NCBI GenBank assembly: GCA_029637525.1
Contig: CP072660.1
Coordinates: 1,017,612-1,081,611 of the forward strand
Direction of reading: 5' to 3'
Origin: Desulfurococcaceae archaeon MEX13E-LK6-19
GTDB taxonomy: Archaea; Thermoproteota; Thermoprotei_A; Sulfolobales; Desulfurococcaceae
Length of the DNA: 64,000 nucleotides
Below are positions 3,721 through 22,922 of the stretch, piece by piece. Made by a program: the position numbers and the translations under genes. Under the pieces are notes generated by a model. That model ran no database searches and was not told the DNA's origin. It was given only the letters and a program-made list of their open reading frames with translations. Positions within the stretch are counted from its first letter, which is position 1; the number at the start of each line of letters is the position of its first letter.

Positions 3721-3880
3721 AGGAAATAACGTCAACAGGGTAACTTTATCGTTTTTAACTTGCGTAAAAACTGCCATACAGTATAGAGTTTTAGGGTTAA
3801 CGAAAATAATACACAACAAATTAAACTATAGTTAAGGTAATATAGAGAAAACGATACACCAACATAATAACTTCGGATTG

Positions 3881-6059: not shown

Positions 6060-7654
6060 AGCCGAGGAATCTATTGTTTTTAGCATTAATAATAGCTATC
6101 ATGGTAAGGTTAATACCAGTAATAATTTATTCTACACCGTTTTCCACGGACTCATGGCCTTTAATATGCTTGTCGGAGAAATTAATTAGATCACCTACAA
6201 ACCATATCTTTAATGACACATATTATGATGGCTATAATAACCATTGGCCCGGAGTAATATTGTTTTCATCTACAGCATCAATAGTTACCGAGATCAAACC
6301 AATAATACTAATGCCTTTACTTGTACCTACAGTAAATGTTCTTTCCATGATCTTTATAGTTCTCCTAGTAAGTAGGTACAATGGTTCCAGAGAAGCAATA
6401 TTTTCAGCACTGGCGTTGGCCGTCATACCCCCATTGATAGTGTTTACAAGTGCAGCTACCAAGGAGGGGTTTGCACACCCATTGTTTGTAATGCTTATTT
6501 ATTTAGCTCTAAAACCAGTGTGGAGGAAGGCAGAAGTACTAGTATCATTGCTAGCTTCTTTAACTCTTGTTTTATCTCATCATCTAACTACTTTCATGTA
6601 TATATACATTATATTGACAACATTACTAGTGGCAAGTCTTAGCAGTGTGAAAACAAATATCAAGCTGAAAACCAGCGTTTACCCGTTGCTTTTTGTTTTC
6701 GTATTCGCTATAATACATCACTTAGTGATAGGCCCAGGTGTTTTCCGGATAGCAGCTACGCCTAGAGACATACTGACATTATTTCTCTATACAATACTAT
6801 TTACTATGCCTATTGTCTTGTTTGGAAAAGCACCAAATAACGGGCAATCCAGTACACGATTTACGATTCCATACAAGCCGCTCTTTATAGTAGTTATAGT
6901 TTTTGCTGTTGTAGTATATGCTTCAACGTATTCCCCTGCTCCTGGAATACCATCTCTAGGGCAAAGCGTATTGTACTATAGCATACCATACATTATTGTG
7001 CCAATTGCGTTTTGGTATACCTACAGACAATGTTTTATCGAGAAAAGCAAATTGATCGTATTTTTGATTGCATGGACTATGGGGTGCTTTTCCATTATAG
7101 CGTATTTGTTATTTGCGGATAACCCACTGGGTGCAAGCGCAATACATAGAGTCATAGACTTTATGGATTTCCCACTTGCTATATCAATTGGTTTTGTTTC
7201 ATCCCGATTGTTCAATACTGCTAGTACATTATTTCAGAGGATACTGGGGGTTGTACTTGTATTCCTAGCGGTTTTATCGGGAATATCAGTGATGTCCTTG
7301 ATTGTATCGCGTAATGATACTGTATCGTTTTACTGGCTTTACAACAAAGCCGAGTTCTACGCTGGTCTCTATGTTAAAGAATATGTTGGGAATATGAGTA
7401 TAACTGGTGATGCTAAGATAGACTATTTATTCAAATACTTTGAAATCAATGTGTATCCCACACCGTTGATCAGGCTTGTTGTTGATGGCGTGGCCGAAGA
7501 TAACACATTATATATACTATATAGAGAGAACTATTCTAAAGGCATAGTGCAAGCATTAATGATATTTAGTTTAAGTAAACAATGTATTGAAATATTAGAA
7601 AAGGATACAAACAGAGTATACGATAGTTCGATGGTGAATATGTACATTGGATAG
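6056..7654 (+). CDS. Multispanning membrane protein, GT-C glycosyltransferase-like
   Basis: A 532-residue protein with about eleven to thirteen hydrophobic segments. Just after the first helix comes STDSWPL (Asp ~32), the place where GT-C enzymes (oligosaccharyltransferase, protein mannosyltransferase) carry their catalytic acidic residue, and further on NNHWPGVILF, again typical of the first outer loop. A short soluble C-terminal part (~430-532) follows the last helix. Use of a lipid-linked sugar donor is an inference from this layout only. The gene is joined by ATGA to a permease and is followed immediately by the ABC ATPase, so it belongs to the transport operon. It could instead be a non-catalytic membrane partner. 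Confidence 0.5.
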   Translation: MKPRNLLFLALIIAIMVRLIPVIIYSTPFSTDSWPLICLSEKLIRSPTNHIFNDTYYDGYNNHWPGVILFSSTASIVTEIKPIILMPLLVPTVNVLSMIFIVLLVSRYNGSREAIFSALALAVIPPLIVFTSAATKEGFAHPLFVMLIYLALKPVWRKAEVLVSLLASLTLVLSHHLTTFMYIYIILTTLLVASLSSVKTNIKLKTSVYPLLFVFVFAIIHHLVIGPGVFRIAATPRDILTLFLYTILFTMPIVLFGKAPNNGQSSTRFTIPYKPLFIVVIVFAVVVYASTYSPAPGIPSLGQSVLYYSIPYIIVPIAFWYTYRQCFIEKSKLIVFLIAWTMGCFSIIAYLLFADNPLGASAIHRVIDFMDFPLAISIGFVSSRLFNTASTLFQRILGVVLVFLAVLSGISVMSLIVSRNDTVSFYWLYNKAEFYAGLYVKEYVGNMSITGDAKIDYLFKYFEINVYPTPLIRLVVDGVAEDNTLYILYRENYSKGIVQALMIFSLSKQCIEILEKDTNRVYDSSMVNMYIG

Positions 7655-7679
7655 CGTAGCTAAGCACAGAAGAGAGCTA

Positions 7680-8351
7680 ATGAGACTTGAGGGCGTATGT
7701 AAGAGTGTTGCCGGCGAGCTTGTTCTAGAAAATGTTTCTTTAACTATCAATGATGGAGACTTTATTTGTATACGTGGGATAAGCGGTGTAGGAAAGACAA
7801 CTTTATTAAAAATCATAGCTTTGGTAACACGTCCTGATAAAGGTAATGTAATATTTTTAGGGAAGAACACGAAGTCATTAAGTAATAGTACTCTTGCCTT
7901 ATTAAGATTAAAATACATTGGTTATATACCTCAAGAACTCGGTCTTTTAGAGATGTTAAGTGTCGAAGAGAACATACTATTACCGTTGTATACGCTTGGC
8001 ATTAATAAGAAAGACGCTACAAAAATTGTTAATGAAATCCTTAATAAACTTGGCATCATACATAAGAAGGACTATCATCCTAGATCTCTTAGTGGCGGGG
8101 AAAGACAAAGAGTTGCCATAGCTAGAGCCCTTGCGAAGAAACCTTTACTTATAGTGGCGGACGAACCTCTATCTAATTTAGATGACGTAAATGCGGGTAT
8201 AATTCTAGATCTTTTCCGTGAATACGTTATAAAGCAGGGTGGTGCGGTAATAATGTCCACAACAGATCTTTATGCTGACTATCCTTGTACTAAAGACTAC
8301 TTTCTAGCTAAGGGGAAACTGTACTTTAAAAAAGCTAAGACCGCTAGTTAA
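7680..8351 (+). CDS. ABC transporter ATPase, LolD/MacB type
   Basis: A ~223-residue ATPase with all the nucleotide-binding motifs: Walker A GISGVGKTT (~33-41), Q-loop YIPQELGLLEML, signature LSGGERQRVAIARAL (~136-150), Walker B LLIVADEPLSNLD, and a shortened region where the H-loop is expected: MSTTDLYADYPC has Thr-Asp instead of the usual Thr-His. That missing His is unusual and could slow hydrolysis. The ATG at 7680 is preferred because relatives begin a few residues before LEGVCKSV; an upstream TTG at 7647 overlapping the previous stop is also open. It would energise the two FtsX-type permeases upstream. Confidence 0.88.
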   Translation: MRLEGVCKSVAGELVLENVSLTINDGDFICIRGISGVGKTTLLKIIALVTRPDKGNVIFLGKNTKSLSNSTLALLRLKYIGYIPQELGLLEMLSVEENILLPLYTLGINKKDATKIVNEILNKLGIIHKKDYHPRSLSGGERQRVAIARALAKKPLLIVADEPLSNLDDVNAGIILDLFREYVIKQGGAVIMSTTDLYADYPCTKDYFLAKGKLYFKKAKTAS

Positions 8352-8468
8352 TTTATATTATGAAAAATACATAAATACTATATGTGTAATGCCTCTTAAA
8401 CGACCTTAGTAATAGGTACAAGTACAGTGGTAATCACTACTATAGACGATGCTGTACCGGGGGTCAAT

Positions 8469-9410
8469 ATGGATGAAGAACTTAATAAGAAAGTAACAGT
8501 AATTGTACCAACATACAATGAAGAAGAAGGTATAGGAAAAGTTATAGATGAACTCATTGCGGAGGGCTTTTCTAAAGAAAACATTATTGTTGTAGACGGG
8601 CATAGTACCGATAAAACCGTTGAGATAGCCAAGAGTAAGGGTGTAAAGGTAATCTATCAAGAAGGTCATGGCAAAGGAGATGCTATAAGAACAGGTTTAA
8701 AGTATGTTAAAACACCTTATGTTGCAGTTATTGATGGAGACTATACCTACCCGGCTAAACACATTAAAGATCTTCTACATGTAGCTGAAAACGGTGGCTG
8801 GGATGAAGTTATAGGAGCTAGGATTTATGGCAGGAAAAACATACCCCTAATCAATAGGTTGGGTAACTATGTTTTGACTAAACTGTTTAACATTCTCTTT
8901 GGCACAAAACTAAGAGATGTGCTTTCAGGTCTTTACATTATAAGAAAAGAAAAACTCGCCTCAGCAATGTTTGAAACAAAAGGATTCAGTATAGAATCAG
9001 AGATAGCTGCCCATATAGCATCGACTACAGGGAAAATAATAGAACACCCTATATCCTATAGGAGAAGAGTTGGTGAAAAGAAACTTAGGATCCTTGATGG
9101 TATAAGAATCGGTATTGATATGATTAGATTGGCGTGGAGATATAATCCAGCATTTGTATTATTTTCAGCTGGCGCAATTATACTTGTACCAGGGCTTTTA
9201 CTAGGAGGCTATGTAGCATACTATTATTTATTCCATGGCATAAAATATTATGTGAAAGGATTGATTGCATTAATAATGACTCTTGCAGGTTTTCAGAGCC
9301 TATTGATAGCTATACTATCGGTTTATTTAAAGAGAATGGAGTGGAGACTTACCAGTAAGATTGAAACGCTTCAGGAAAGAATAAGTGCACTCGAGAAAAA
9401 ACGTGAGTAG
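8469..9410 (+). CDS. Family 2 glycosyltransferase, dolichol-phosphate sugar synthase-like
   Basis: A ~313-residue protein. The N-terminal GT-A domain has VIVPTYNEEEGIGKVI, IIVVDGHSTDKTVEIA and a VIDGDYTYP stretch holding the DxD metal site, then LRDVLSGLYIIRKE and the GFSIESEI segment common in dolichyl-phosphate mannose/glucose synthases. Two membrane helices (~230-258, ~263-285) and a short C-terminal coiled coil follow. It probably transfers a nucleotide sugar onto a polyprenyl or dolichyl phosphate, making the donor for surface glycosylation. The ATG at 8469 fits the family better than an upstream GTG at 8427. It lies between the ABC operon and the MoxR operon on the same strand. Confidence 0.85.
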   Translation: MDEELNKKVTVIVPTYNEEEGIGKVIDELIAEGFSKENIIVVDGHSTDKTVEIAKSKGVKVIYQEGHGKGDAIRTGLKYVKTPYVAVIDGDYTYPAKHIKDLLHVAENGGWDEVIGARIYGRKNIPLINRLGNYVLTKLFNILFGTKLRDVLSGLYIIRKEKLASAMFETKGFSIESEIAAHIASTTGKIIEHPISYRRRVGEKKLRILDGIRIGIDMIRLAWRYNPAFVLFSAGAIILVPGLLLGGYVAYYYLFHGIKYYVKGLIALIMTLAGFQSLLIAILSVYLKRMEWRLTSKIETLQERISALEKKRE

Positions 9411-9514: not shown

Positions 9515-10462
9515 ATGGATTTTGATGAGGCATACGAACTTGCATCATCTATGATTAAAGAAATAAAGAAAGTAATTGTAGGTAAAGATTGGGAAATAAT
9601 TGTATCAATATCAGCTCTACTTAGTGAAGGACATGTACTTATTGAAGGTCCTCCAGGAGCAGCTAAAACTCTTCTTGCTAAAAGTATAGCGCGTGTAATT
9701 GGAGGTGAATTTAGGAGAATACAAGGCAATCCAGACATACTACCTAGTGATATAACAGGGTTCCATGTCTATTCTCTTGAAGGGAAACGTGGAGAACTAA
9801 TAAAAGGACCTATATTTGCACACATTGTCTTCTTCGACGAGCTTAACCGTACACCAACACGCTCTCAAGCAGCATTACTTGAGGCAATGCAAGAAGGATA
9901 TGTTACCATCGATGGAATAGACTACGAATTACCTAAACCCTTTATGTTGATAGCTACAGAAATTCCTGAAACAATAAGTCGTGGTACATATCCTCTAACT
10001 TTAACACTTGTTGATAGATTTATGGTGAGATTAAAGACAACATATAATCCCCCTGAAGAAGAATACTTAATCGTTAGCAAATCTGATGAACTAGATGCTA
10101 TTAACCTTAACCCTGTTACCAATATAGATAAAGTTCGTGAGCTCATCAAGTTTATTAAGCAAAACATTCATGTTGACGAGAGGATCGTGAAATATATTGT
10201 CGATTTAATAACCTATATCCGTAGACATAAGGATGTTGCAACGGGATTAAGTCACCGTGCATCGATAAGCTTGTATCGTATAGTACGATCGTATGCATTG
10301 ATTGAGAAAAGAGACTATGTTATACCCGATGACATAAAGAAGTTTGCTAAAGTAGTTCTTGCGCATAGGATTTTACTAAGTCCGGAGGCCGAGGCTGAGG
10401 GACTTACCCCTGAAGATATTGTTGATGAGGCACTTAATAGTGTAAAGGTGCCTAAAGAGTGA
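9515..10462 (+). CDS. MoxR-family AAA+ ATPase
   Basis: A 315-residue MoxR ATPase: Walker A GPPGAAKT (~45-52), the family stretch RIQGNPDILPSDITGF, Walker B IVFFDELNR (~104-112), sensor 1 in MLIATEIPE (the usual Asn is replaced), and the C-terminal lid with SHRASISLYRIVRSYA. Ala replaces the second Gly of the usual Walker A, a change seen in several MoxR proteins. MoxR proteins are chaperone-like and assemble or activate partners encoded beside them, usually with DUF58 proteins. Here it opens a one-directional operon whose next gene overlaps by GTGA. GGTGC lies ~9 bases before the ATG. Confidence 0.92.
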   Translation: MDFDEAYELASSMIKEIKKVIVGKDWEIIVSISALLSEGHVLIEGPPGAAKTLLAKSIARVIGGEFRRIQGNPDILPSDITGFHVYSLEGKRGELIKGPIFAHIVFFDELNRTPTRSQAALLEAMQEGYVTIDGIDYELPKPFMLIATEIPETISRGTYPLTLTLVDRFMVRLKTTYNPPEEEYLIVSKSDELDAINLNPVTNIDKVRELIKFIKQNIHVDERIVKYIVDLITYIRRHKDVATGLSHRASISLYRIVRSYALIEKRDYVIPDDIKKFAKVVLAHRILLSPEAEAEGLTPEDIVDEALNSVKVPKE

Positions 10463-11106
10463 AGTTAACACTAAGTATTGTATCTAAAATATTTACTATA
10501 TTGTTTCTTGTATCATGCTTCTTGTCAACAAATAATTCCATTAATTTGGTTTTGTCGGTAATATTCCTTATAATACTATTCAATACATATATTATAGGTT
10601 ATCATAAGAAACTTGAACTAAATCCTCCGTTATGGGTTATTCCATTATCTTATACAATATATTATGCCTTAATATTGGTTACAAACAATACTGGGTTAAT
10701 CAGTATTACTGTTCTTTCAGCATTATTGTTTACGGTAATGGTTAGACCTGATGATAATGTTATGAGAAAATTGAGTATTCAATCGAGGATCATATTAGCT
10801 ATCATGCTTGTCGAGCTCTTTTTGGTAGCACTCCTTGGACTACAGTTTTATACATTCTTTTTACTAGGACCAGTATTGGAGGCTATGTGGGTCAATATAT
10901 TTTGTGGAAGAAGTGTTTTAGATAAACTTCTTGGAGTAGCGATCATAGCACTATACTATAGTATATATCCTGTCTTTATACCCTATGTGTTTGTAGTAAG
11001 CGTTATCAAGCTTATGATGTTTCATAGAGGTTATTACATACAACCAGTCATCGCCGATTACATTACCAGAGTTGTTTACGGGTGGGTAATAAGCCTTGGA
11101 TATTAG
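10459..11106 (+). CDS. Integral membrane protein, unknown family
   Basis: A 215-residue protein with six or seven predicted membrane helices and no soluble domain. No catalytic or binding motif is visible and I do not recognise the family. The GTG start overlaps the moxR stop (GTGA) and is preceded by AGGTGCC at normal spacing; its own 3' end overlaps the next gene by 11 bases. That coupling means it is made in step with the MoxR ATPase and the downstream membrane proteins. It may be a structural subunit of the same complex. Confidence 0.7.
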   Translation: MKLTLSIVSKIFTILFLVSCFLSTNNSINLVLSVIFLIILFNTYIIGYHKKLELNPPLWVIPLSYTIYYALILVTNNTGLISITVLSALLFTVMVRPDDNVMRKLSIQSRIILAIMLVELFLVALLGLQFYTFFLLGPVLEAMWVNIFCGRSVLDKLLGVAIIALYYSIYPVFIPYVFVVSVIKLMMFHRGYYIQPVIADYITRVVYGWVISLGY

Positions 11107-11797
11107 GTTTGTGCTTGCTGGAATAAACATTATAGCTGTAGCAATAGTAATGGCGGTATACGGATGGTTAACATACTCAACACAGTTGATTGGTATAGCA
11201 GGGTCTATAGGCATTGTGGGCGCAGTATCTGTCGCAGTGGGCTTATCACATGGAGAACCAACGGCTGTTTTTCTCAAAGATTATTATAGGATAATATCAG
11301 GTTTTGTGTTGAAGACACTAGAGGATCTACGTCTAATTAATATTTTGCCTAAAATACTATTTATTAAAGAATCAAATGAATACTACATGGTACTGACACA
11401 ACTTAAATCATTTAGCGGCATTGGCAAAGAAATTACTCCAGGTATAATGATCGTAAATGGCGCTCCATCTTATGTTTTCAAACTCCCTAATATCTACGCA
11501 GAAGCGGTTGAAGAACCCATTACTGACCCTATAGAATTAGAGTCTCGTGTCAAATCTCTCTTGATAGAAACCTATGGTCTATGTACAAGAGTATCAATTA
11601 CCCGTACTAAGGATCTGCTTGACTTAAGTCTTGAAGGTGTTGATAAAAAGCTTTTGGAAGTACTATACGAGCCCTTATCACCTATAGATGTTGTTGTACT
11701 AACCATTCTAGCTCAATTAATGAAGAAAAGCCTCTATATGGAGAGTCGATCTATTGAAGGTGATACGTATACTGCAAAAATAAGGGTGGTATTGTAG
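11096..11797 (+). CDS. Two-helix membrane protein with C-terminal cytoplasmic domain
   Basis: A 233-residue protein with two N-terminal membrane helices (~5-25, ~30-50) and a mixed alpha/beta soluble domain (~65-233). The membrane part resembles the small protein at 3412-3720: VYGWLTYSTQ followed by a Gly-rich helix. The soluble part has no recognisable motif. It starts at a TTG behind GGGTGG and overlaps both neighbours, so it is translationally coupled within the MoxR operon. Function unknown; a membrane scaffold for the MoxR/DUF58 machine is a reasonable guess only. Confidence 0.68.
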   Translation: MDIRFVLAGINIIAVAIVMAVYGWLTYSTQLIGIAGSIGIVGAVSVAVGLSHGEPTAVFLKDYYRIISGFVLKTLEDLRLINILPKILFIKESNEYYMVLTQLKSFSGIGKEITPGIMIVNGAPSYVFKLPNIYAEAVEEPITDPIELESRVKSLLIETYGLCTRVSITRTKDLLDLSLEGVDKKLLEVLYEPLSPIDVVVLTILAQLMKKSLYMESRSIEGDTYTAKIRVVL

Positions 11798-12054
11798 TGA
11801 GAAGAGTAGAAGTATTTATGCTTGTGTTTGCTTTATTTGTAGTCTTAAGTAATATTGCTCTTGTTCTTGTTGGTGAAAATAGATTTGATGTTTATATTGC
11901 TTTAACTATACTTGTGTATTATGTATTGTATGCAGTATTAGATCCATTGCTTGGTAAAACCACAAAGTACTTTCAAGGGTTAAATATAGGTTTGTTCATT
12001 TTATTTATGGTTATAGTGGTCTACAGGATAATGGAGATCCTTGCGACAGTGTAG
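11797..12054 (+). CDS. Small membrane protein with three helices
   Basis: An 85-residue, almost wholly hydrophobic protein with three predicted helices (~6-25, ~32-48, ~60-80) joined by short loops. Its GTG start shares one base with the stop of the gene before it. No family is recognised. The tight coupling to both sides argues that it is a real gene and part of the same membrane complex. Confidence 0.62.
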   Translation: MRRVEVFMLVFALFVVLSNIALVLVGENRFDVYIALTILVYYVLYAVLDPLLGKTTKYFQGLNIGLFILFMVIVVYRIMEILATV

Positions 12055-12072
12055 AAGAGGTAATAAAAAGCA

Positions 12073-14022
12073 ATGTCTTCAACAAAGATTATTGCTGTAC
12101 TGGCAACTATAATGATTATTGTTGGGCAAGGTTTAGCGATACTAGATTCTCAAGAATCAAGTTTTGATGGTGCAATACTTGCAGAAATTTTTACAAAAGT
12201 AATCGACTTAATAATATCCGAGAAATATAATGAAGCTAAAAACATTATAAATGATGTAAAGTTAGCCGAAGTACCATATGATATAGCATATCTTCATAAA
12301 ACTATTTATGAAAAGTTAGACAAGATCGTTAACGACTTAATTATAATAAACAAACTTATGGATAAAATAAACAAGCTTTGGCTTCAAAACTATACCAGTC
12401 AGGAATTGAATGAAAGTATTACAGAACTTAAAAAATACACTATAAAGCTTTATGGCGATAAATTAAGACTTGAAACCGACCTAGATGATTATGTTTCAAG
12501 ACTATTGAAGTACGTTAACACAACACAACGTACATATTATACCAAGCTCTTAAGTACAAAAACATACAATTTACTGAATATCCTTGACGAAAGAATTTAT
12601 GATATAATTGAGTACATTAATAAGATTAGTAGAGTGATTGAAACAGAATATGTTGATATAAAAATAGGCTATATACCAAGACAATTACCTGCAGGATCTA
12701 AACTTATTATTCCTGTACAGATAGTTTCAATCAATGAGTCCGCTGGTATAACAAATTATACGCTCATGTTAAGACTATGGTATGAATACTGGTATCTTGA
12801 GGAATATGAGTTTTCTATTGTAAATACTACTGAATTCAATATTGTTCTTAGACTACTTGATGCAAAGGAGATTATTGATAAGAGTATACCGATAGAACAG
12901 GGCCCTAGTCATGGAGATTATTATGTTGATGTTTATGGTGTTATTTATTGTTTAAAGAATATTGGTAATGAAAGCATCATTGTAGGTAAAAACGTGTTTA
13001 ATTTAACAATCACATTGTATGAGCCACAGATAATGTTTATTGTGCCACAGCTTGTCTATTACGGAGAAAACACTACTATAAAAATATTCTCTGGTATTGA
13101 ATGCCCAGTTAATGTATCAATAATACTTGATGGAGTAAAAATAACTAGAATTACGGTCAGAAAAGGTATAACAAGCTACACATTACCATACTACGTCCTC
13201 GGTAAAGGATATCATACGCTTGTATTTAAGAGTGATCCTACGGGTAAGTATGTTGGTTTAACTCATACTGCTGCATTGGCGGTTGTTGGAAAAAAGATTG
13301 ATGGCGTTATTAAGTATAGTAGAGTATGTATACAGCCATTTATTAGCTATGTAGTTAAGGGGATAGTATACGATAATGGTGATTTAGGTAGTATAAAGCT
13401 TGTTGTTTCCGTAGGTAATGATATCGTCTACAACGACAGTGTTCCATATAGTTTTTCTGCAAAAATATCTCTTCCATACACATTTCTAATATCGGTATAT
13501 GATGTGGTTTTCAAAGTAGTTCCTGAAGATCCTCGTTATGATCCATTGGTTGTTGAGGCTAAAGTTATTGTTGTGAACATCGCTAGTTTAGTGATCTTAT
13601 CAGCTATAATGCTTGCCCTCATGTTTATAGAGACTCCAGGAGATATAACCGCGATATACAGGTTTTTTATAGGAAAAACACAAAGAGCCCTAACAATGAC
13701 CCGTACCTCAGGTAAACTTGGGGTCAAAAGTATTAAGGCAAGAGCGATCGAGTATCTTGTGGTTAAAATAAGAAAGTCTTGGGCGGCCAGTATCTACTGG
13801 AAACTTGTTGGTAAGCTTTCGAGAGTACTACCAAAACCATTGCCCCATGAAACGCTTAGAGAGTATTATAAAAGAAGTAGAGAAAAACTCCCAGAAGATG
13901 CACGTGAGGTATTCGGAAAGCTCACATTGCTTGTAGAAAAAGATCTATACTCTATCAAGAAACCCGATAAACATGTTATTGAAGAGCTCGTGAAGAGGGT
14001 GGAAAATGCCCTGGGTGAGTAA
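12073..14022 (+). CDS. Large single-pass surface protein with DUF4129-like cytoplasmic tail
   Basis: A 649-residue protein. It has an N-terminal signal or anchor (~1-22), a helical outer region (~30-190), a beta-rich outer region with several N-x-S/T sites (~195-495), a membrane helix near 500-518, and a basic cytoplasmic tail. The tail ends in HETLREYYKRSREKLPE (from ~592) followed by an acidic helix and a YSI turn, the pattern of DUF4129 domains found beside MoxR/DUF58 in bacteria. I read it as the archaeal counterpart, with a much larger ectodomain. A GAGGTAAT site precedes the ATG. Its 3' end overlaps the DUF4350-like gene by 17 bases. Confidence 0.68.
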   Translation: MSSTKIIAVLATIMIIVGQGLAILDSQESSFDGAILAEIFTKVIDLIISEKYNEAKNIINDVKLAEVPYDIAYLHKTIYEKLDKIVNDLIIINKLMDKINKLWLQNYTSQELNESITELKKYTIKLYGDKLRLETDLDDYVSRLLKYVNTTQRTYYTKLLSTKTYNLLNILDERIYDIIEYINKISRVIETEYVDIKIGYIPRQLPAGSKLIIPVQIVSINESAGITNYTLMLRLWYEYWYLEEYEFSIVNTTEFNIVLRLLDAKEIIDKSIPIEQGPSHGDYYVDVYGVIYCLKNIGNESIIVGKNVFNLTITLYEPQIMFIVPQLVYYGENTTIKIFSGIECPVNVSIILDGVKITRITVRKGITSYTLPYYVLGKGYHTLVFKSDPTGKYVGLTHTAALAVVGKKIDGVIKYSRVCIQPFISYVVKGIVYDNGDLGSIKLVVSVGNDIVYNDSVPYSFSAKISLPYTFLISVYDVVFKVVPEDPRYDPLVVEAKVIVVNIASLVILSAIMLALMFIETPGDITAIYRFFIGKTQRALTMTRTSGKLGVKSIKARAIEYLVVKIRKSWAASIYWKLVGKLSRVLPKPLPHETLREYYKRSREKLPEDAREVFGKLTLLVEKDLYSIKKPDKHVIEELVKRVENALGE

Positions 14023-14869
14023 AGTAACAATAATGCTTATAATAGTGCTTATTGCAGCAATAACAATGTCTATCATCACTTATGTACCAACTACTACAAG
14101 CTTTAGCCCCTATAATACTTATGGTGATGGTTTATCTGTATTTGTTAACGATATTGGAGTTAAACCTAATATTGTTAATACAGATGATATTGGATGTAAA
14201 GTTCTCATAGTGGTTGCTGAAAAACCTCTTGATGAAGACAAAATAAATATATACGAAAACTTTGTAGCCAAGGGAGGTACCCTAATAGTTTTTGATGACG
14301 CCGGTTATACTAATAATTTGTTTAGTAAATTAGGGCTTGGGATTACTATTGTTAACAAGACTGTGTTGGATGAGGTTTTTAAAGAGGATGACAGATTCCA
14401 TGTTAAGGCAAGATATAGTATAGATAGTTATCATGGCTACGTTATCCTGTATAAGCCTGGTTTCATAGAGATAAGTGATTTAACTAATAAGCGAGTAATA
14501 CTTTATTCATCAAGTTATTCCTATGTTGATATGGATGGTAATGGTTATTACACTGTAGGCGAGCCTATTGGGCAGAAATATCTTGGAGTAGAAGCAGCCA
14601 GCGGTAAAGGAAGAATTATAGTGATCGCTGATAAAGACATTGTCACCAATTCTATTATAGTATTAGAAAACAATACACTGTTTACTAAGGAGCTCATCGG
14701 TCAAGAAGATACTTGTCTGGATTTATCTGAGCTAAAATTAGGGCCTATGGATTACTTGAAGTTCCATGTTAACAAATACACCACTTTCCTTGGCTCAGAT
14801 TACTTGCTGGCTGGATTCTTGATAGCTGTGACTGGTGTTGGTGTTTATGCTAGGAGAAGACATGCGTAA
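14006..14869 (+). CDS. DUF4350-like anchored protein with basic C-terminal tail
   Basis: A 287-residue protein with an N-terminal helix (~5-25), a Rossmann-like outer domain and a second helix near the C-terminus. FSPYNTYGDGLSVFVND directly after the first helix and the GGTLIVFDDAG strand (~93-103) are typical of DUF4350 proteins, which accompany MoxR, DUF58 and DUF4129 in other genomes. The C-terminus is a hydrophobic helix followed at once by ARRRHA, a layout also used by sortase-type sorting signals; a plain membrane anchor is the simpler reading. It overlaps the genes on both sides. Confidence 0.7.
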   Translation: MPWVSKVTIMLIIVLIAAITMSIITYVPTTTSFSPYNTYGDGLSVFVNDIGVKPNIVNTDDIGCKVLIVVAEKPLDEDKINIYENFVAKGGTLIVFDDAGYTNNLFSKLGLGITIVNKTVLDEVFKEDDRFHVKARYSIDSYHGYVILYKPGFIEISDLTNKRVILYSSSYSYVDMDGNGYYTVGEPIGQKYLGVEAASGKGRIIVIADKDIVTNSIIVLENNTLFTKELIGQEDTCLDLSELKLGPMDYLKFHVNKYTTFLGSDYLLAGFLIAVTGVGVYARRRHA

Positions 14870-16487
14870 ATACAGAATATTCATTGCCTCCATGATATAC
14901 TTGTTGATTGTGTCCATAGTTGTCACTCTATATTATGGCGACATGTTACCCATACTATTTATTGGTACAACATTTATCTTGGTACATAAGAAGAGGTATT
15001 ATGCAGGACTACTTTGTCTCACAGCTTTATCCCTTTATATATCGGGTAAAGACTTGTACTCGCTATTGTCTACAATACCATTCATTCTTGTTTTCCCAGT
15101 AAACGTTAAGTCCATAGTTAAACCTGCAATTAAGCCCGCGGGGTTCTTTGGCCCACTTGCACGTTCAATGATAACAATTAGTTCCATGTATCTTCCAGTA
15201 ATATTTCTCCGGCCAATAGTATCGCTGTACTATATTGTAATGTATGTATATATAATTACATTGGTTACTGTAAATTATAGTCGTCTAAGAAACATATCAT
15301 ATAAGGTTGTATATGCACCTAAAACTATTGCTTTGACAGGAAAATCTTCCATAGTTATACTTATTGAGTCTACTGTTAATGCCTTTATTCATGTGGTTAG
15401 TGGTGAAGAGGTGATTGCTGAGCGAATTGTACAAGGGGTTGTACGTCTAGAAATACCTTTACAGGCTAAGAGACTTGGTGTAATGCCCTATAGATTTAGA
15501 ATATATGCTATCGATCTAGATGGGTTTACATCTAGGCTTGTTGGTGTTATTGAGGGCGAGGTAAATGTTGCTCCATACACGAAAATCGCTATAGAAAAGA
15601 TCAGGACTGTTCTTAAAGAAATACTTATCGAAGCCGGTTTTCCTATTGAAATAAAGGTTTACACTATAAGAGGTGTTTTTGGAGGGGGATATGGTGAAGG
15701 CGAGGGCGAGATAGGTGAGGAAATTTCTGAGGAAGGTTATTTGGGCAAGATAGTTGCTAGGATTATTGCAAGAGAACGGGGAAGCCTAACCGGTGCAAGA
15801 AAGTATCGTCGTGGGGAATACATGGGTGCTCGTGAGTTTTTAAGTGGGGATTCTCCACGTGATATTCACTGGAAGAAAACTGTTAGTAAACTAAAACTCT
15901 ATGTAAAGGAGTATAGTGGGCATAGCGGAGGTAGTGGAGGCAACAGGATCCTCGTTATAACAGACTTGCTTTCATCAAATAGCAGAGAACTTGATACAAT
16001 AACTTATACGACATTATCGTTTATAGTTGGAATGCTTACCAGAAACGTTAATGCTGAATTATCATTAGTAGTTATTGCTCCCTCGAATGAAATACTCTAC
16101 GTCAGGGGTTCTCCTTTACAAATACTTGCTTTCTTTACAAGAGTCTACGAAGAAGGACTAGTTAAGTTGTTTTATGAATATGAGAGTTTTGGCAGAGAAT
16201 ATAGTCTCGATAATATCTACAAGCTCTTGACTTTTAAGGATAAGAGCTTAATTATTGAAACTATTAGGCAGTATACAATAATGTTTTCAAAGAAGTTGCT
16301 TAGAATTCTTTCTGAGAAAAGATTGTTGCCACCATTGTTGTTTACTATAATTCATGGAAATCCATCGGCATTACATAATAGTATACTTAAGGAGCTACTG
16401 GTCATGAATGGTTATACCTATATTCCACCTAGGGTAATGCCTTACAGTGAACTAACTAGGGTTATTACAGAAATAGCTGCCGGCTGA
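14862..16487 (+). CDS. DUF58 family protein
   Basis: About 541 residues. Several N-terminal membrane helices (~1-125) are followed by a beta-rich domain and then the DUF58 signature: GEYMGAREFLSGDSPRDIHW with KKTVSK, LYVKEY and a VWA-like RILVITDLLSS. DUF58 proteins are the standard partners of MoxR ATPases and may carry a VWA-type metal site; their biochemical role is poorly known. The ATG at 14862 follows AGGAG at the right distance; the open frame reaches back to 14835. It overlaps the previous gene by eight bases and is followed by the archaeosortase gene two bases after its stop. Confidence 0.88.
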   Translation: MRKYRIFIASMIYLLIVSIVVTLYYGDMLPILFIGTTFILVHKKRYYAGLLCLTALSLYISGKDLYSLLSTIPFILVFPVNVKSIVKPAIKPAGFFGPLARSMITISSMYLPVIFLRPIVSLYYIVMYVYIITLVTVNYSRLRNISYKVVYAPKTIALTGKSSIVILIESTVNAFIHVVSGEEVIAERIVQGVVRLEIPLQAKRLGVMPYRFRIYAIDLDGFTSRLVGVIEGEVNVAPYTKIAIEKIRTVLKEILIEAGFPIEIKVYTIRGVFGGGYGEGEGEIGEEISEEGYLGKIVARIIARERGSLTGARKYRRGEYMGAREFLSGDSPRDIHWKKTVSKLKLYVKEYSGHSGGSGGNRILVITDLLSSNSRELDTITYTTLSFIVGMLTRNVNAELSLVVIAPSNEILYVRGSPLQILAFFTRVYEEGLVKLFYEYESFGREYSLDNIYKLLTFKDKSLIIETIRQYTIMFSKKLLRILSEKRLLPPLLFTIIHGNPSALHNSILKELLVMNGYTYIPPRVMPYSELTRVITEIAAG

Positions 16488-16489
16488 TA

Positions 16490-18157
16490 GTGTTGTATCA
16501 AAGCATGTGCCCAGGATGCAATACTAGGGGTTTTATAATACTTGTCACATTGGTGGGTATCATAGCTTCTTTTATCGAATTAATATATAAAGATGCAATA
16601 CTTGCTTACTTCTTATTGCTTGAAACAAATGAGTATAGCTATCTTGCCGTAATATCCTTCATAGTGCTATTGATAGCTATCATGGAATCATGTAATGTAA
16701 GTGGTGTGAAGAGAATTCATTTTGGTAGAGTATTGGTTGCATCTGTGCTCATTGTACTTTCTTATGTATTGCTCATGTTTTCCTATATAACGAATAAGTA
16801 TATTCTAGAATTCAAAATTGCTTCGATTATCTTCTTAGTATGGGGGTTTTCGGCAATAATTTTTAGTCCTAGAGATTTTCGTGTAATGGGCTTGCCCTTG
16901 CTTGCTTTAGTTTTCCTTATACCTATACCTAGGAGTATTATTGATGAAATCGCATTGTATCTTTCGCAGCATGTTGCATCTGTTGTCTCATTTCTAACTG
17001 GCTCTGAGCTCGTTAAGGATGGTGTTGGCCAGCAGGTTTTCTTAAAAGTAATAGACTCTAGCGGTAACGCTAGGTTGTTTGAAATTGCAGGCGTATGTAG
17101 TGGTATAATAAGTTTGTTGTCGATACTATCGCTAGTAATAATGCTTGCCTATTTTCTTGTAAAAAGCAAGAAATATGATTATAGGAAAATACTTGGTATG
17201 ATAGGTTGTATAACCGTTGGTATAATAGTCGTTTATATTGGGAACATAATTCGTGTTACACTTGTTGTACTAATTACGAAGTACTGGAGTTATGAAGCCG
17301 CCATGTCCTTCTTCCATACAGTACCATCGATAATTTATAGCGCTATTGCAGTGGTAGTAGTTGTTCTTTTAGCACATAAGATTCTCGGTATAAGTAATGT
17401 TTTTGGGAACAAGGAAACAATATTTGTCAATGGGATTAAAGAAGAGCAATTTAATCCCAAAGAAATAGGAGGAGTATTGTTTTCGTTACTCATTATAACA
17501 AGCATATTTACCGGATTGTACGCTAGTTTATATTCAACCAATATTAATGGTAGTGAGAACACGTTTGTTCTGGAATTCCAGGAATTGTTCATGAATGCTA
17601 CGAAAATAGTGTTTAATGGGACAGGGGCAATAGTTCTTGAAGAAATAGATAGGCCAACACTAATCAGAGCACTCGGTTCTAGTCTTGTAAAGGAAATCAT
17701 TGTCAGATATAAGAACGACATCTATACAGGGTACATAGAAGTTGCCGAGACACCGAGCAGGTTCCATAGTTGGAGTGTTTGTTTAACTTTTCAAAGATAC
17801 ATTATAGAAGATGAATGGAGTGTTTATTTGAACAATACAGTAGTTGTTTTCATGCTCTTGAGAAGTGTTACGGGGGAGAAAATAACACTAGCTTACAGCG
17901 TATACGAAGTGCCTGTGTATTTTGGTGGCAAAAAGATTATGGCTTATGTTAGGGTTTCTCTTTTCAAGCATGGTGTTGGCACCAGTGATTTAATTGAATT
18001 ATTCAGTAAAATACAGATAGGAACAAGGCATGTAAGTAGAGTTTATGAGTATCTACTGCTATGGGTTAATATAACTACAATACTACTTGCAATCGTGATT
18101 TTGTATGCATTGATAGTAGTTACTATACATATTAAGACGAAGCTAGAGAGGCGATAA
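16490..18157 (+). CDS. Archaeosortase/exosortase with fused EpsI-like domain
   Basis: A 555-residue membrane protein. Residues ~15-300 form an exosortase-type core of about eight helices with the putative catalytic triad: Cys203 in GVCSGIISL, Arg255 in GNIIRVTLVV and His276 in FFHTVPSIIYS. Known archaeosortases cut C-terminal sorting signals and move proteins to a lipid anchor. A further helix (~330-350), an outer domain and a final helix (~525-548) follow. The outer domain contains HSWSVC (His426, Cys431), which matches the HSPEVC pattern of exosortase-associated EpsI proteins, so this looks like a sortase-EpsI fusion. The start could be GTG 16490, TTG 16493 or ATG 16505. It sits between DUF58 and DUF1616 genes. 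Confidence 0.82.
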   Translation: MLYQSMCPGCNTRGFIILVTLVGIIASFIELIYKDAILAYFLLLETNEYSYLAVISFIVLLIAIMESCNVSGVKRIHFGRVLVASVLIVLSYVLLMFSYITNKYILEFKIASIIFLVWGFSAIIFSPRDFRVMGLPLLALVFLIPIPRSIIDEIALYLSQHVASVVSFLTGSELVKDGVGQQVFLKVIDSSGNARLFEIAGVCSGIISLLSILSLVIMLAYFLVKSKKYDYRKILGMIGCITVGIIVVYIGNIIRVTLVVLITKYWSYEAAMSFFHTVPSIIYSAIAVVVVVLLAHKILGISNVFGNKETIFVNGIKEEQFNPKEIGGVLFSLLIITSIFTGLYASLYSTNINGSENTFVLEFQELFMNATKIVFNGTGAIVLEEIDRPTLIRALGSSLVKEIIVRYKNDIYTGYIEVAETPSRFHSWSVCLTFQRYIIEDEWSVYLNNTVVVFMLLRSVTGEKITLAYSVYEVPVYFGGKKIMAYVRVSLFKHGVGTSDLIELFSKIQIGTRHVSRVYEYLLLWVNITTILLAIVILYALIVVTIHIKTKLERR

Positions 18158-18160
18158 ACA

Positions 18161-18586
18161 GTGTTTAACAGAACACGTATTGTCCTGATAATATTTGTGC
18201 TTACGGCACTTACTATTGGCACCATAATTACTTATGGTGAAGAAACTACTACAATAGATAACAAGATTGTAGAGGCTTATAAGATCGTTTATAAGCTCGG
18301 TAGAATGGGTATTGATGTGAAAAACCTTATAGACAAGCTTAATGAGGCACAAAAGCTTATTGATGAACAACATTATGATGAGGCGGAAAAACTTATTGAT
18401 GAAGTGCTTGAGGATGCGAGGAGACTTGAAGAACAGGCTCCATCTATTGTATTCTGGAGAGATTTCACGAAGGCAATGACAGTTGTCTGTCTTGCCTCAA
18501 TACCTGTCTTAACATACTTGTTCTTACCACGTATCTACCTCGATATGTGGTATAAGCTTAAGAGGAAATGGGTGGTAAAGAAATGA
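18161..18586 (+). CDS. Small anchored helical protein with basic C-terminus
   Basis: A 141-residue protein: an N-terminal hydrophobic signal or anchor (~5-25), a helical outer segment (~30-95), a second hydrophobic helix (~105-125) and a basic tail (KLKRKWVVKK). The helical segment has EQHYDEAEKLIDEV, close in pattern to SEKYNEAKNIINDV in the ectodomain of the DUF4129-like protein at 12073. The GTG start lies three bases after the archaeosortase stop and the 3' end overlaps the next gene by 19 bases. No family is recognised; an accessory or substrate of the sortase complex is possible. Confidence 0.62.
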   Translation: MFNRTRIVLIIFVLTALTIGTIITYGEETTTIDNKIVEAYKIVYKLGRMGIDVKNLIDKLNEAQKLIDEQHYDEAEKLIDEVLEDARRLEEQAPSIVFWRDFTKAMTVVCLASIPVLTYLFLPRIYLDMWYKLKRKWVVKK

Positions 18587-19074
18587 TTCTTGACGAGGAG
18601 GTATTTGCCGTCATTATGGCTATTATTGTTGTAGGAAGTGTGTTTGGTATAGCCCAAGTACTTCGCCCTAGTGTCGTGGAACCATTTACTGCTATTGGTC
18701 TCCTTAATGAGGAGTGTAAAATAGGTGATTATCCAGAAATTGTTGTTGCTGGCGAGAATATTACATTATGTATATTTGTCCATAACTATATGGGCTATCC
18801 TATTTACTACAAAGTCGTGTATAAGATCGGTACTAACGAGACACTGCCTACACAGAATACTTCGTCTCCGGAACCCCCTGTAATGGAGTGGAAAGGCTTT
18901 CTCGATCATAATGAGAACACTACCTTCAAGGTAACTATCACTGTTGATAGACCTGGGAAAAAGATAGCATTAATCTTTGAGTTATGGCTTTATGACCCCG
19001 ATAAAGATGCATGGGTTTACTCAGGTAGATGGGTACACTTATATGTAGATGTACTGGAGGCGCCTGTCACATGA
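18568..19074 (+). CDS. DUF1616-type outer domain protein (C-terminal half of a split DUF1616)
   Basis: A 168-residue protein with one N-terminal membrane helix (~10-30) and a beta-sandwich outer domain. GDYPEIVVAGENITLCIFVHN and the following YKV strands match the second half of DUF1616 proteins, where a YP...V.G...V.V.V.NHE pattern is found. N-x-S/T sites are present. The next gene encodes the matching membrane half, with an ATGA junction, so the two products probably re-associate. The ATG at 18568 overlaps the previous gene. The assignment is by remembered family pattern and should be tested by profile search. Confidence 0.6.
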   Translation: MGGKEMILDEEVFAVIMAIIVVGSVFGIAQVLRPSVVEPFTAIGLLNEECKIGDYPEIVVAGENITLCIFVHNYMGYPIYYKVVYKIGTNETLPTQNTSSPEPPVMEWKGFLDHNENTTFKVTITVDRPGKKIALIFELWLYDPDKDAWVYSGRWVHLYVDVLEAPVT

Positions 19075-19622
19075 AGAAAAACAGTGTTACAACAATAGAG
19101 GAACTTGTAGCCAAATACGTTAGAAGAGGCATGGATAGACGTAAAGCTATCGAGAAAATCTATAGGGAATGGGCTGAAGGAAAGATCGAGATATACGACC
19201 CTAACCCACCCAGGGACTTCATAGAGTATCTCCTAAGACTTGACCACAGCTTATGGTTCTGGTTCTCAATTATAGTCCTCGGATTAACCTTGTTCACAGT
19301 CTACTTCTCATGGATAAACCCGTTTATCCTCTACTTGAGATATATCCTAGGATCAATAATGGTTCTCTACCTACCCGGGATGGCCCTGATAGAGGCATTG
19401 TACCCTGGTGAAAGAGAGCTATCTCCATTGGAGAGACTAGCGTTATCCATAGGGTTATCATTAGCAGTAGTCCCATTAATTGGGCTTATACTAAACTACA
19501 CGCCATGGGGCATAAGACTAAACCCTATATTGGTATCGTTGACAGTATACACTTTAGGATTACTTGTATTAGCGGCTTATAGAAAGTATATGCTTGTCCT
19601 TAAGATACATACGAAAGGATAA
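19071..19622 (+). CDS. DUF1616 membrane domain protein
   Basis: About 183 residues. A basic helical N-terminus (~1-55, with ELVAKYVRRGMDRRKAIEKI) precedes four membrane helices. YLPGMALIEALYPGERELSP then LERLALSIGLSLAVVPLIGL is the DUF1616 signature. DUF1616 proteins are common archaeal membrane proteins of unknown function and normally carry an outer domain on the same chain, which here is encoded by the preceding gene. The ATG at 19071 overlaps the preceding stop (ATGA) and follows GGAGG at 19055; the open frame reaches back to 19029. This is the last gene of the operon. Confidence 0.75.
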   Translation: MKKNSVTTIEELVAKYVRRGMDRRKAIEKIYREWAEGKIEIYDPNPPRDFIEYLLRLDHSLWFWFSIIVLGLTLFTVYFSWINPFILYLRYILGSIMVLYLPGMALIEALYPGERELSPLERLALSIGLSLAVVPLIGLILNYTPWGIRLNPILVSLTVYTLGLLVLAAYRKYMLVLKIHTKG

Positions 19623-19720: not shown

Positions 19721-21292
19721 TTACTTTAGTAGTCCTAGTTTTCCTTCTTTTCTAAGTCTGTAGACTCTCCAAGTAGGTGTGACGTGGCGTGGGTGGTTTG
19801 CTTTTACTGCATCTATTCTTCCTACAGCTGTGTTCTTAGGCCACTTCTTTGGTTCCTCGGGGTTCTCATAGGCTATTCTAGCGATCTCTTTTAGTCTTTC
19901 AGCGTATCTCTCGATGTTTTCTTTTGTCTCTGTGTCGGTGAATTCTATCATTAGTGCTTCTGGTACTATTAGTGGGAAGTATATTGTTGGTGCATAGAAT
20001 CCTGCGTCTAGTAGGCCTTTAGCCACGTCTTCGGCGTTGACTCCTGTTTCGTCAGCCAGAGGCTTTGCGCTGTATACGATCTCGTGTTTCCTCCATCTCT
20101 CTGGGCCATAGTATAGTGTGTAGCCTTTAACTCCCTCCATTAGCTTCTTGAAGTAATTGGTGTTGATTACTGCTTGTTCTGTTGCTTCTTTGAGTCCCTG
20201 TGGACCCATTGCCATTATGTATGTGAAGCCCCATACAAGAGGTATGACGTTGCCGAAGAATGCTTTCAGCATACCAACGCTGTATGGGCCAGGCCACTTG
20301 AGTTTGTACTTCTTCTCTTTCTCATCGTAGACTACTCTTGGTCCTGGCAAGAGGTCTGATAACTTGATTCCCTTGTCAGGGTCTACTATACGGTCTTTTA
20401 CACAAACAGGGCCTGCTCCAGGACCGCCTCCGCCGTGGGGTGATGAGAATGTCTTGTGTATGTTTATGTGGGCTATATCGAAGCCCATGTCGCCTGGTCT
20501 TGTATAGCCCATTATGCCGTTGAGGTTCGCTCCATCGTAATAGAGTAGTCCGTCTACTTCATGTATGATCTTTGCTATCTCTACGATGTTCTCCTCGAAC
20601 ATGCCAAGAGTACTCGGGTTGGTGATCATGAGTCCTGCTGTGGCTTCCGATACAGCTGCTTTAAGTGCTTCAATGTCCACGTTGCCTCGTTCATCACTCT
20701 TCACTTCTATTACTTTGAAGCCGGCCATGCTTGAGCTAGCAGGGTTTGTGCCGTGTGCGGAGTCGGGTATTATTATCTCCTTTTTCTTGTCGATCTGTCC
20801 TTTTAGCTCATGGTACTTCCTTATTATTAATACGCCTGCTAGTTCACCATGTGCACCTGCTGCTGGATGTAGTGTACATGCATCCATTCCAACGATATTG
20901 GCTAGCCATCGTTCTAGAAGATACATCATCTCGAGGAGTCCTTGTACTGTTCGCTCGTCTTGTAGTGGATGCAACATAGTGACTCTTGGATCAAACGCGG
21001 CTTCCATAGCTATCTTCGGGTTATACTTCATAGTACAAGAGCCGAGTGGTACAGGACCGTTATCAACACCATAAGTCATTTGTGTCAAGTTAACGAAGTG
21101 TCTTAACACCTCTACTTCGCTGAGCTCGGGTAGTTCAGGAGGACTGGATCTTTTTATCTTGTCGGGAAGCTTTATCTCACCAACATACTTCTTTATTTCC
21201 TCCTCAATTTCAGGTACAAGGAATCCTATTCTACCAGGAGCACCAAGCTCGTATATTATGGGCTCAGGCCATTTTGCCTGTCTCCACGCCAT
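19721..21292 (-). CDS. gcvPB: Glycine dehydrogenase (decarboxylating) subunit 2
   Basis: A ~523-residue PLP enzyme, normal length for the archaeal split P protein. Visible landmarks are NGPVPLGSCTMKYNPK near the N-terminus, GAHGELAG, and the PLP lysine motif INIHKTFSSPHGGGGPGAGP. With GcvPA it decarboxylates glycine and passes the aminomethyl group to lipoylated GcvH. It is translationally coupled to gcvPA (GTGA). The ATG at 21292 is preferred because GGGAGGTGA sits at ideal spacing before it, rather than the GTG at 21301. Confidence 0.95.
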   Translation of the reverse strand: MAWRQAKWPEPIIYELGAPGRIGFLVPEIEEEIKKYVGEIKLPDKIKRSSPPELPELSEVEVLRHFVNLTQMTYGVDNGPVPLGSCTMKYNPKIAMEAAFDPRVTMLHPLQDERTVQGLLEMMYLLERWLANIVGMDACTLHPAAGAHGELAGVLIIRKYHELKGQIDKKKEIIIPDSAHGTNPASSSMAGFKVIEVKSDERGNVDIEALKAAVSEATAGLMITNPSTLGMFEENIVEIAKIIHEVDGLLYYDGANLNGIMGYTRPGDMGFDIAHINIHKTFSSPHGGGGPGAGPVCVKDRIVDPDKGIKLSDLLPGPRVVYDEKEKKYKLKWPGPYSVGMLKAFFGNVIPLVWGFTYIMAMGPQGLKEATEQAVINTNYFKKLMEGVKGYTLYYGPERWRKHEIVYSAKPLADETGVNAEDVAKGLLDAGFYAPTIYFPLIVPEALMIEFTDTETKENIERYAERLKEIARIAYENPEEPKKWPKNTAVGRIDAVKANHPRHVTPTWRVYRLRKEGKLGLLK

Positions 21293-21297
21293 ATTAC

Positions 21298-22707
21298 TCA
21301 CCTCCCAAGGATCTCCTTGATCGATTCAACCAAGAAATCAATGTCTTGTTTTGTATGAACTTCAGTTACACAATAGAGAGCTGATTCACCGAGCTCAGGA
21401 TAGTATGGCTTGAGATACAGTCCTCCATGTATCCCCCTCTTGAGTAGTTCTTCGTGTATTGTCTTGTAGTCTACTCCTGCTTCATTGAAGTCCACTACGA
21501 ACTCCTTGAAGAACTCTGACTTGAATCTCGGTGCTTTAACGCCCGTTATTTCATTGAGCTTCTTTGCGGCATAATGCGACCTGTATAGTATTAGCTCTCC
21601 TATCTTCTTGAATCCTTCCTTGCCGAGTAAAGCCATGTAGACAGCTGCTGCTACAGCACATAGTGCCTCGTTGGTACAAATGTTTGATGTAGCTTTTTCT
21701 CTACGGATGTGTTGTTCTCTAGTCTGTAGTATCATCGCGAAGGCTCTTTGGTCACCTGTTTTCGTGGTCGTGAGACCCATGATCCTACCGGGCATTTGTC
21801 TTATAAACTTCATGTTCCATTTTGTCGCGAAAATACCTAGGTATGGTCCGCCGAAGTTAAGGCCCAGGCCAAGCGGCTGTCCTTCGCCAACAGCTATATC
21901 TGCACCAAGTTTACCCGGTGACTCGAGGACACCAAGGCTCATCGGGTCTACTCCAATAATATACAGTGCACCAGCATCATGAGCTATCTCACCTATGTCC
22001 TTCGCGTTCTCCTCTATGAACCCGAGGAAGCTGGGGTTCTCAATGTATACGGCTGCAGCCTTTTTGTCGCTTAGCTTGTTCTTCAAATCCTCTAGATCCA
22101 TTAGCCCTGTTTCCGGGTCATGTTTCACTTTCTCAATCTTGTAGCCATGGGGCCATAGGTAGGAGTTGATTACTTTCTCGTGGAAGGGATTCATAGTTGA
22201 TGGAACAATTACTTTCTCTTTACCACGATTTACACGGAATGACATGAGGAATGCTTCAGCAGCAGCACTAGCCCAATCATACATTGAGGCGTTGACTACC
22301 TCCATATCGAGGAGCTCGGCTATCATGCTCTGGTATTCAAACAATGCTTGCATAAGACCATACGCGATCTCGGGTTGGTACGGTGTGTAAGTGGTCATGA
22401 ACTCTCCACGTGTTATAATATATCTCACGACAGCTGGTACATAGTGAGGCCACGCCCCGCCTCCGAGGAATGGCGGGGGATTCTTGAAGATCTTGTTTTT
22501 ATCCAAATACTCCTCAATCTTCCTCTTGACCTCGATCTCGGATAAAGGTCTTCCGAAACCTATCTCTAGTTTATTCCAGTCAACTTTTATCCTCGCCTCC
22601 TCGGGTATGTCACTGAAAAGCTCCGAGACATCTTTAACACCAATAGTCTCCAGCATCTTCTTCTTGATTTCATCGGGAGAATTGGGTAACCAGGGATGTT
22701 TAACCAA
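21298..22707 (-). CDS. gcvPA: Glycine dehydrogenase (decarboxylating) subunit 1
   Basis: A 469-residue subunit of the split P protein. FLGGGAWPHYVPAVV, FMTTYTPYQPEIAYGLMQ and the GLTTTKTGDQRAFAMILQTREQHIRREKA region (seen in parts) are hallmarks of GcvPA. It lacks the PLP lysine and forms the dimer with GcvPB. The start is a TTG preceded by GGGGGTCC. The promoter is likely the aatataaga stretch near 22755-22745 on this strand. It is divergent from gcvT across a 215-base spacer. Confidence 0.95.
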   Translation of the reverse strand: MVKHPWLPNSPDEIKKKMLETIGVKDVSELFSDIPEEARIKVDWNKLEIGFGRPLSEIEVKRKIEEYLDKNKIFKNPPPFLGGGAWPHYVPAVVRYIITRGEFMTTYTPYQPEIAYGLMQALFEYQSMIAELLDMEVVNASMYDWASAAAEAFLMSFRVNRGKEKVIVPSTMNPFHEKVINSYLWPHGYKIEKVKHDPETGLMDLEDLKNKLSDKKAAAVYIENPSFLGFIEENAKDIGEIAHDAGALYIIGVDPMSLGVLESPGKLGADIAVGEGQPLGLGLNFGGPYLGIFATKWNMKFIRQMPGRIMGLTTTKTGDQRAFAMILQTREQHIRREKATSNICTNEALCAVAAAVYMALLGKEGFKKIGELILYRSHYAAKKLNEITGVKAPRFKSEFFKEFVVDFNEAGVDYKTIHEELLKRGIHGGLYLKPYYPELGESALYCVTEVHTKQDIDFLVESIKEILGR

Positions 22708-22922
22708 GGATAAGGACCCCCGCGTATACTTACAAATGTATTCTTATATTGGCGAAGCAAAAAGGTGTATCGCTTTATCTCAAGATCCCTAGATAAAACA
22801 CTTAGACAAGCTAGTATTATAGAATACATTTAATTTCTCTGCAGATAACTATAGTATTGTCAGCCAGAGATAAGGAAGTTCTCTCATGCACTTGTACCTC
22901 AAGCTATCAGGTGACCGACACA

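Follow-up and report, generated by a model that had tools for sequence, protein, structure and literature searches.

Described relatives of the operon

In 2015, Makarova, Galperin and Koonin grouped DUF4350, MoxR, vWA and DUF1616 proteins with several small membrane proteins and interpreted this arCOG01314-associated set as a putative secretion system, a role which is a prediction in the source paper as well; DUF4350 and DUF1616 are predicted there to be secretion or S-layer proteins, and sortases are absent from its main text and tables (PMC5898192). Here we analyse an eleven-gene operon containing an archaeosortase, located at positions 9515-19622 of a 64,000-nucleotide stretch of contig CP072660.1 (hereafter the window) from Desulfurococcaceae archaeon MEX13E-LK6-19, a heat-loving archaeon with a 1.91 Mb genome. 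All components of the arCOG01314 system are present in this operon: DUF4350, MoxR, a DUF58 protein in the vWA/DUF58 slot and DUF1616 (arCOG02884/pfam07760) as two halves, together with several small membrane proteins. The window differs from the described system in its added archaeosortase, in the splitting and swapping of DUF1616, and in three constant partners, i.e. open reading frames (ORFs) 3 and 4 and a small coiled membrane protein.

The archaeosortase shares with Haloferax ArtA (PMC7157517, PMC5744192) its nature as an exosortase-family membrane protein with Cys-Arg-His residues, and a role in surface-protein processing can be proposed by analogy. It is, however, about twice as long as ArtA, has an extra extracytoplasmic H-x4-C domain and is set in a MoxR operon; it reaches none of the named cut-offs from ArtA to ArtE (ArtC 16.4 bits versus 100), and the PGF-CTERM signal was not found. 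The order of an exosortase core followed by an extracytoplasmic H-x4-C domain is also that of the bacterial exosortases XrtD and XrtW, which are fused to EpsI, and the H-x4-C spacing resembles the EpsI motif. In comparison with XrtD and XrtW only the core of the window protein matches, far below cut-off, and Pfam DUF3485 was not found; since EpsI/DUF3485 (PF11984) hit none of 28 members at an E of 0.5 or below, we do not claim the archaeosortase as a member of EpsI/DUF3485. With an E threshold of 0.001, matches to ArtC or ArtE are confined to single members out of 28 relatives.

Two further comparisons concern the partner genes. The Haloferax hvo_2160-2173 cluster, which sits in a cell-shape region, encodes a DUF1616 glycoprotein and the organism's largest protein, a predicted ArtA substrate (PMC8241124, PMC10869688). 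As in the window, the wider hvo_2160-hvo_2176 shape region has DUF1616 and an ABC transporter clustered, along with the giant predicted substrate, although Haloferax is a distant archaeon and encodes its ArtA elsewhere. In addition, MoxR/vWA pairs serve as chaperones in other systems, e.g. NorQ/NorD (PMC9976466).

The archaeosortase as an operon member

What the window adds to the published system is, judged by profile matches and gene order, an unnamed archaeosortase, fused to an EpsI-like domain, that is often part of the operon. All eleven ORFs lie on the plus strand at verified coordinates, and neighbouring ORFs either overlap by 1-46 bases or are separated by 2-18 bases, counted with the longest possible ORFs; several true starts possibly lie a few codons further downstream. 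The genes are as follows:

9515-10462, + strand: MoxR AAA+ ATPase (AAA_3 148 bits, plus AAA_lid_2)
10459-11106, + strand: ORF2, fast-evolving membrane protein with multiple transmembrane (TM) helices, no Pfam family; in many relatives MoxR and ORF3 are separated by a similarly sized gap
11096-11797, + strand: ORF3, the operon marker gene, with two N-terminal TM helices plus an alpha/beta domain; no Pfam family over cut-off
11797-12054, + strand: ORF4, small membrane protein, its position after ORF3 kept in 22 loci
12073-14022, + strand: DUF4129-like membrane protein with a large ectodomain (DUF4129 15.2 bits, below cut-off; profile link to canonical DUF4129)
14006-14869, + strand: membrane-anchored DUF4350 protein of the arCOG01314 type (PF14258 39.1 bits, cut-off 30.4)
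14835-16487, + strand: DUF58 protein (PF01882 11.1 bits, below cut-off; signature and profile link)
16490-18157, + strand: archaeosortase (PF09721 66.5 bits, cut-off 25.7; TIGR04178 40.4, cut-off 23)
18161-18586, + strand: small coiled membrane protein with signal peptide, helical ectodomain, TM helix and basic tail LPRxYxxxWxKxRRKWxV; 20 homologues
18568-19074, + strand: DUF1616 C-terminal half, TM helix plus ectodomain (PF07760 profile positions 157-306, 43.5 bits, cut-off 31.6)
19029-19622, + strand: DUF1616 N-terminal half, membrane domain (PF07760 profile positions 5-120, 100.8 bits, cut-off 31.6); true start probably near 19071

The archaeosortase is the sole one in its genome. Its predicted catalytic triad (C203, R255 and H276) is intact, and the protein consists of an exosortase core (residues ~43-296), a linker, an extracytoplasmic domain of ~170 residues with the motif R-x-H-x-W-x-x-C (H426 and C431; H-x4-C), and a last helix. 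The predicted structure has a predicted local distance difference test score (pLDDT) of 81 and a predicted template-modelling score (pTM) of 0.83, and a fold search with the archaeosortase returned only weak matches, of its C-terminal domain (TM-scores about 0.1-0.3), and no homologous solved structure.

We used the ORF3 profile as operon marker, together with an archaeosortase profile, in 197 genomes of the class, where they matched 43/197 and 39/197 genomes, respectively. Marker and archaeosortase were found together in 33 genomes, the marker alone in 10, the archaeosortase alone in 6 and neither in 148 (Fisher p ~1e-22), and when counted by genus these numbers were 22, 5, 3 and 51 (p ~4e-12). 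Gene order, read in 20-kb contexts, places the archaeosortase in direct contact with moxR or DUF58 in most contigs, usually only a few bases away and often overlapping, and in at least four arrangements: most commonly it immediately precedes moxR (gap -61 to +84 bases), in other loci including the window it lies between DUF58 and the coiled protein, and more rarely it is divergent from moxR (two loci) or inserted between moxR and ORF3 (one locus). The block was found in Desulfurococcaceae, Staphylothermus, Thermosphaera, Zestosphaera, Ignisphaera, Acidilobaceae, Fervidicoccus and Thermofilum metagenome-assembled genomes, with no archaeosortase seen in the Fervidicoccus and Thermofilum loci, and since it is kept across families, a chance arrangement is ruled out. 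The evolutionary distances of the archaeosortase track those of ORF3, the DUF4129-like protein and DUF58 (r 0.87-0.91), which species history alone could explain.

These results bear out much of the initial annotation, which had read the region as eleven tightly spaced genes on one strand combining MoxR, DUF58, DUF4129-like, DUF4350, archaeosortase and split DUF1616 proteins, a description now supported by the ORFs, Pfam and profiles. The expected co-occurrence of archaeosortase and moxR is seen in relatives, mostly as direct neighbours and not as genes lying apart in all of them, and promoter scans, a weak method, showed no archaeal promoter-like site just upstream of 16490 that would set the archaeosortase apart from DUF58, 2 bases away. 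The same annotation had called the MoxR/DUF58/DUF4129/DUF4350 neighbourhood conserved and of unknown role; the conservation holds, and as to the role, a secretion system had already been predicted from MoxR/DUF58/DUF4350/DUF1616 (PMC5898192).

With regard to the core proteins, the MoxR Walker A residues and Walker B Asp are invariant in 22 aligned operon copies, including those of operons whose archaeosortase is dead or missing. The DUF58 signature GEYxGxREYxxGDxxRxIHWKK is recognisable in the window protein, profiles built from relatives reach the canonical DUF58 and DUF4129 proteins of the same genome, and profile comparison shows the window DUF4129-like protein to be a homologue of the canonical DUF4129 proteins at L071:7026 and L072:6323. 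Both identities are confirmed indirectly, via relatives, the window scores themselves being below the Pfam cut-offs. The canonical proteins belong to two more MoxR/DUF58/DUF4129 clusters in the genome (L071:6269-10997 and L072:6323-11307), both lacking an archaeosortase, which makes the window operon, by its gene content, a third, diverged copy of this neighbourhood. ORF3 has a predicted structure with a pLDDT of 87 and no meaningful match in a fold search against PDB, and the small coiled protein is retained in operons without archaeosortase.

The C-terminal half of DUF1616 is encoded first and the N-terminal half second, an order common to nearly all relatives. A local frameshift or sequencing error was considered as the cause of the split and rejected, because the halves are swapped and relatives have the same arrangement. 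In L035, L036, L038, L051, L055, L062, L066 and L085, DUF4350 and DUF58 form a single fusion protein of ~790-850 residues, which is direct evidence, at the level of gene structure, that the two act together. We also considered DUF4350, which has a C-terminal TM helix and a basic tail, as a general substrate of the archaeosortase, and rejected it because it is fused to DUF58 in several archaeosortase-bearing relatives.

Loss and inactivation of the archaeosortase

Four genomes (G002, G030, G079 and G147; loci L082-L085) retain the core, including an intact MoxR, without an operon-type archaeosortase. Only a remnant with an internal stop is left in G029, and in G048 an inactive archaeosortase is found ~300 kb away from the core. 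For the loci with data, the triad is intact in 29 and broken in 13, with one or more residues replaced or the region gone. The frames of the broken copies are still open over ~370-575 residues (shorter at contig ends), and 11/13 still adjoin operon genes. The replacements vary (Cys to Tyr, Ser or Arg; Arg to Glu, Lys or Tyr; His to Gln or Ser), and inactivation has therefore occurred repeatedly. On average the broken copies are accelerated relative to their neighbour genes (p 0.0008-0.05 depending on the gene), L041, L039, L058 and L059 being exceptions.

The second-site Cys of the H-x4-C motif follows the state of the triad, as it is kept in 29/29 intact versus 3/10 broken copies with data (p ~1e-5, computed with 27 intact copies where a recount gives 29, and with copies that are not independent), and in L094 the catalytic Cys and His were lost together with the entire second domain. 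The joint loss of triad and H-x4-C site points to cooperation between the poorly understood EpsI-like domain and the sortase core.

With the core and an intact MoxR kept beside a dead or absent archaeosortase, core function cannot, on the evidence of these genomes, require archaeosortase catalysis. The proposal of the initial annotation that the MoxR machine drives assembly or release of sortase substrates is unsupported in that form, given the four archaeosortase-free genomes, the at least 11 core loci with a catalytically broken archaeosortase, and archaeosortases of other classes which lie beside DUF1616 without MoxR or DUF58.

Possible roles of the operon

We favour, with moderate confidence, a reading of the operon as a Thermoproteia variant of the predicted DUF4350-MoxR-vWA/DUF58-DUF1616 envelope system, with the unnamed, EpsI-like-fused archaeosortase as an optional processing module. 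Sec-exported surface proteins with a C-terminal membrane tail would reach a membrane complex formed by DUF1616, DUF4350, the DUF4129-like protein, ORF3 and the coiled protein, where the archaeosortase, by analogy with ArtA, would cleave the tail via Cys203/Arg255/His276 and hand the new C-terminus to an acceptor. The extracytoplasmic His426-x4-Cys431 site may take part in this processing, and a MoxR hexamer, with DUF58 as adaptor, would load or remodel the membrane complex using ATP. Where a lineage has no functional archaeosortase, this machine would handle proteins anchored by their own membrane helix. A bolder version, which we put forward tentatively and regard as rather unlikely, has the archaeosortase operate within a surface-assembly machine driven by ATP: the H-x-W-x-x-C motif would be a functional partner of the triad (e.g. 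an acceptor or hand-off site), a MoxR motor would be coupled to this sortase with its two sites, and dead copies would be kept as structural subunits in some lineages.

Several observations weigh against a processing module tied to this operon. The best PGF-CTERM hit in the host genome, for the sole sorting signal searched, had an E of 0.6 and fell below the cut-off, and the unlabelled neighbours with a single C-terminal TM helix and basic tail yielded no recurring substrate candidate beside the operon. Further points come from a wider sample of 299 genomes of the phylum, which contains strong archaeosortases outside the class (~700 residues, with the same triad and an HxWExC motif). There, 8/23 archaeosortases have a DUF1616 gene no more than 13 kb away, versus 0.9 expected; MoxR and DUF58 were not found at these loci, which have Polysacc_synt flippase genes nearby and a neighbour with weak similarity to ORF3 (hhalign E 5e-4, probability 33%). 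Because MoxR and DUF58 are missing there, the association of archaeosortases with DUF1616 is, by gene neighbourhood, broader than that with MoxR, and MoxR may not be the functional partner of the archaeosortases. A shared envelope gene island whose members are not physically coupled could also account for the co-location with moxR.

A second archaeosortase subfamily, with the triad intact, was found apart from the MoxR operon (L064:8452-15953 and L065:6900-12562), next to type-IV-pilin-like ORFs (starting AISPVIATLILIAIAVIAGVFVL) and a vWA, FHA-like and Ser/Thr-kinase-like set, all labelled by eye. A collection search used DUF1616C as query. Of the DUF1616 neighbourhoods in Methanohalobium and on a haloarchaeal plasmid, one has DUF58 and glycosyltransferases nearby, and there is no annotated archaeosortase.

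The gene island, in which the archaeosortase and the MoxR/DUF58 machine are co-inherited, both serve the surface and work independently, is in our view possible, if distinctly less probable than the envelope system with an optional module. It accounts well for the core kept without archaeosortase, for the inactive copy ~300 kb from the core in G048, for other-class archaeosortases found with DUF1616 and polysaccharide flippase genes but without MoxR, and for the glycosyltransferase and ABC genes that cluster at the operon too and recur beside it in relatives. It sits less easily with the very strong co-occurrence, and with an archaeosortase that touches moxR or DUF58, often overlapping, across several rearranged configurations. 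The genes upstream of the operon are as follows:

3878-4882 and 4818-6059, + strand: two membrane proteins resembling FtsX/MacB-type permeases (no Pfam hit; labelled by eye)
6056-7654, + strand: multi-TM protein resembling a GT-C glycosyltransferase (no Pfam hit; labelled by eye)
7647-8351, + strand: ABC ATPase (ABC_tran 109.6 bits)
8427-9410, + strand: AglJ-like family 2 glycosyltransferase (TIGR04182 AglJ 228 bits, cut-off 325; Glycos_transf_2 97 bits)

About a dozen relatives, with archaeosortase-free copies among them, also carry the trio at 4818-8351 close to the operon. Directly downstream of the operon, 19721-24053 contains gcvPB- and gcvPA-like genes on the minus strand and a gcvT-like gene on the plus strand, i.e. 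ordinary metabolism (identified by eye).

We consider it improbable that the MoxR machine uses, or comes to use, the archaeosortase as a non-enzymatic membrane subunit, with catalysis secondary: the 13 loci lacking a full triad, with their long open frames and 11 positions beside operon genes, would fit such a subunit, but the broken copies evolve faster than their neighbours and one has lost its whole C-terminal domain, the internal-stop remnant in G029 and the lineages without a copy look like decay, and most copies, including that of the window, are intact. A locus for the synthesis and export of a surface polysaccharide or glycan, using EpsH/EpsI-type proteins, glycosyltransferases and an ABC transporter, is highly improbable, as the EpsI-like domain, the nearby AglJ-like family 2 glycosyltransferase, GT-C-like and ABC genes and the flippases of other-class DUF1616/archaeosortase loci are set against the absence of a recognisable glycosyltransferase or flippase within the eleven-gene block and the prediction of DUF4350 and DUF1616 as secretion or S-layer proteins (PMC5898192).

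The membership of an archaeosortase in this envelope system and the linked loss of its two Cys sites appear new in the literature searched, with many subscription papers, including the 2012 archaeosortase survey, outside its reach. The MoxR/DUF58/DUF4350/DUF1616 system is widespread in archaea and was predicted in 2015, and its function is still a prediction in that literature; an archaeosortase as frequent member offers a biochemical handle, i.e. C-terminal cleavage and how it depends on the individual genes. The coupling of triad and H-x4-C site is relevant to bacterial exosortases as well, and the repeated inactivation of the archaeosortase constitutes a natural experiment on the role of the core without sorting.

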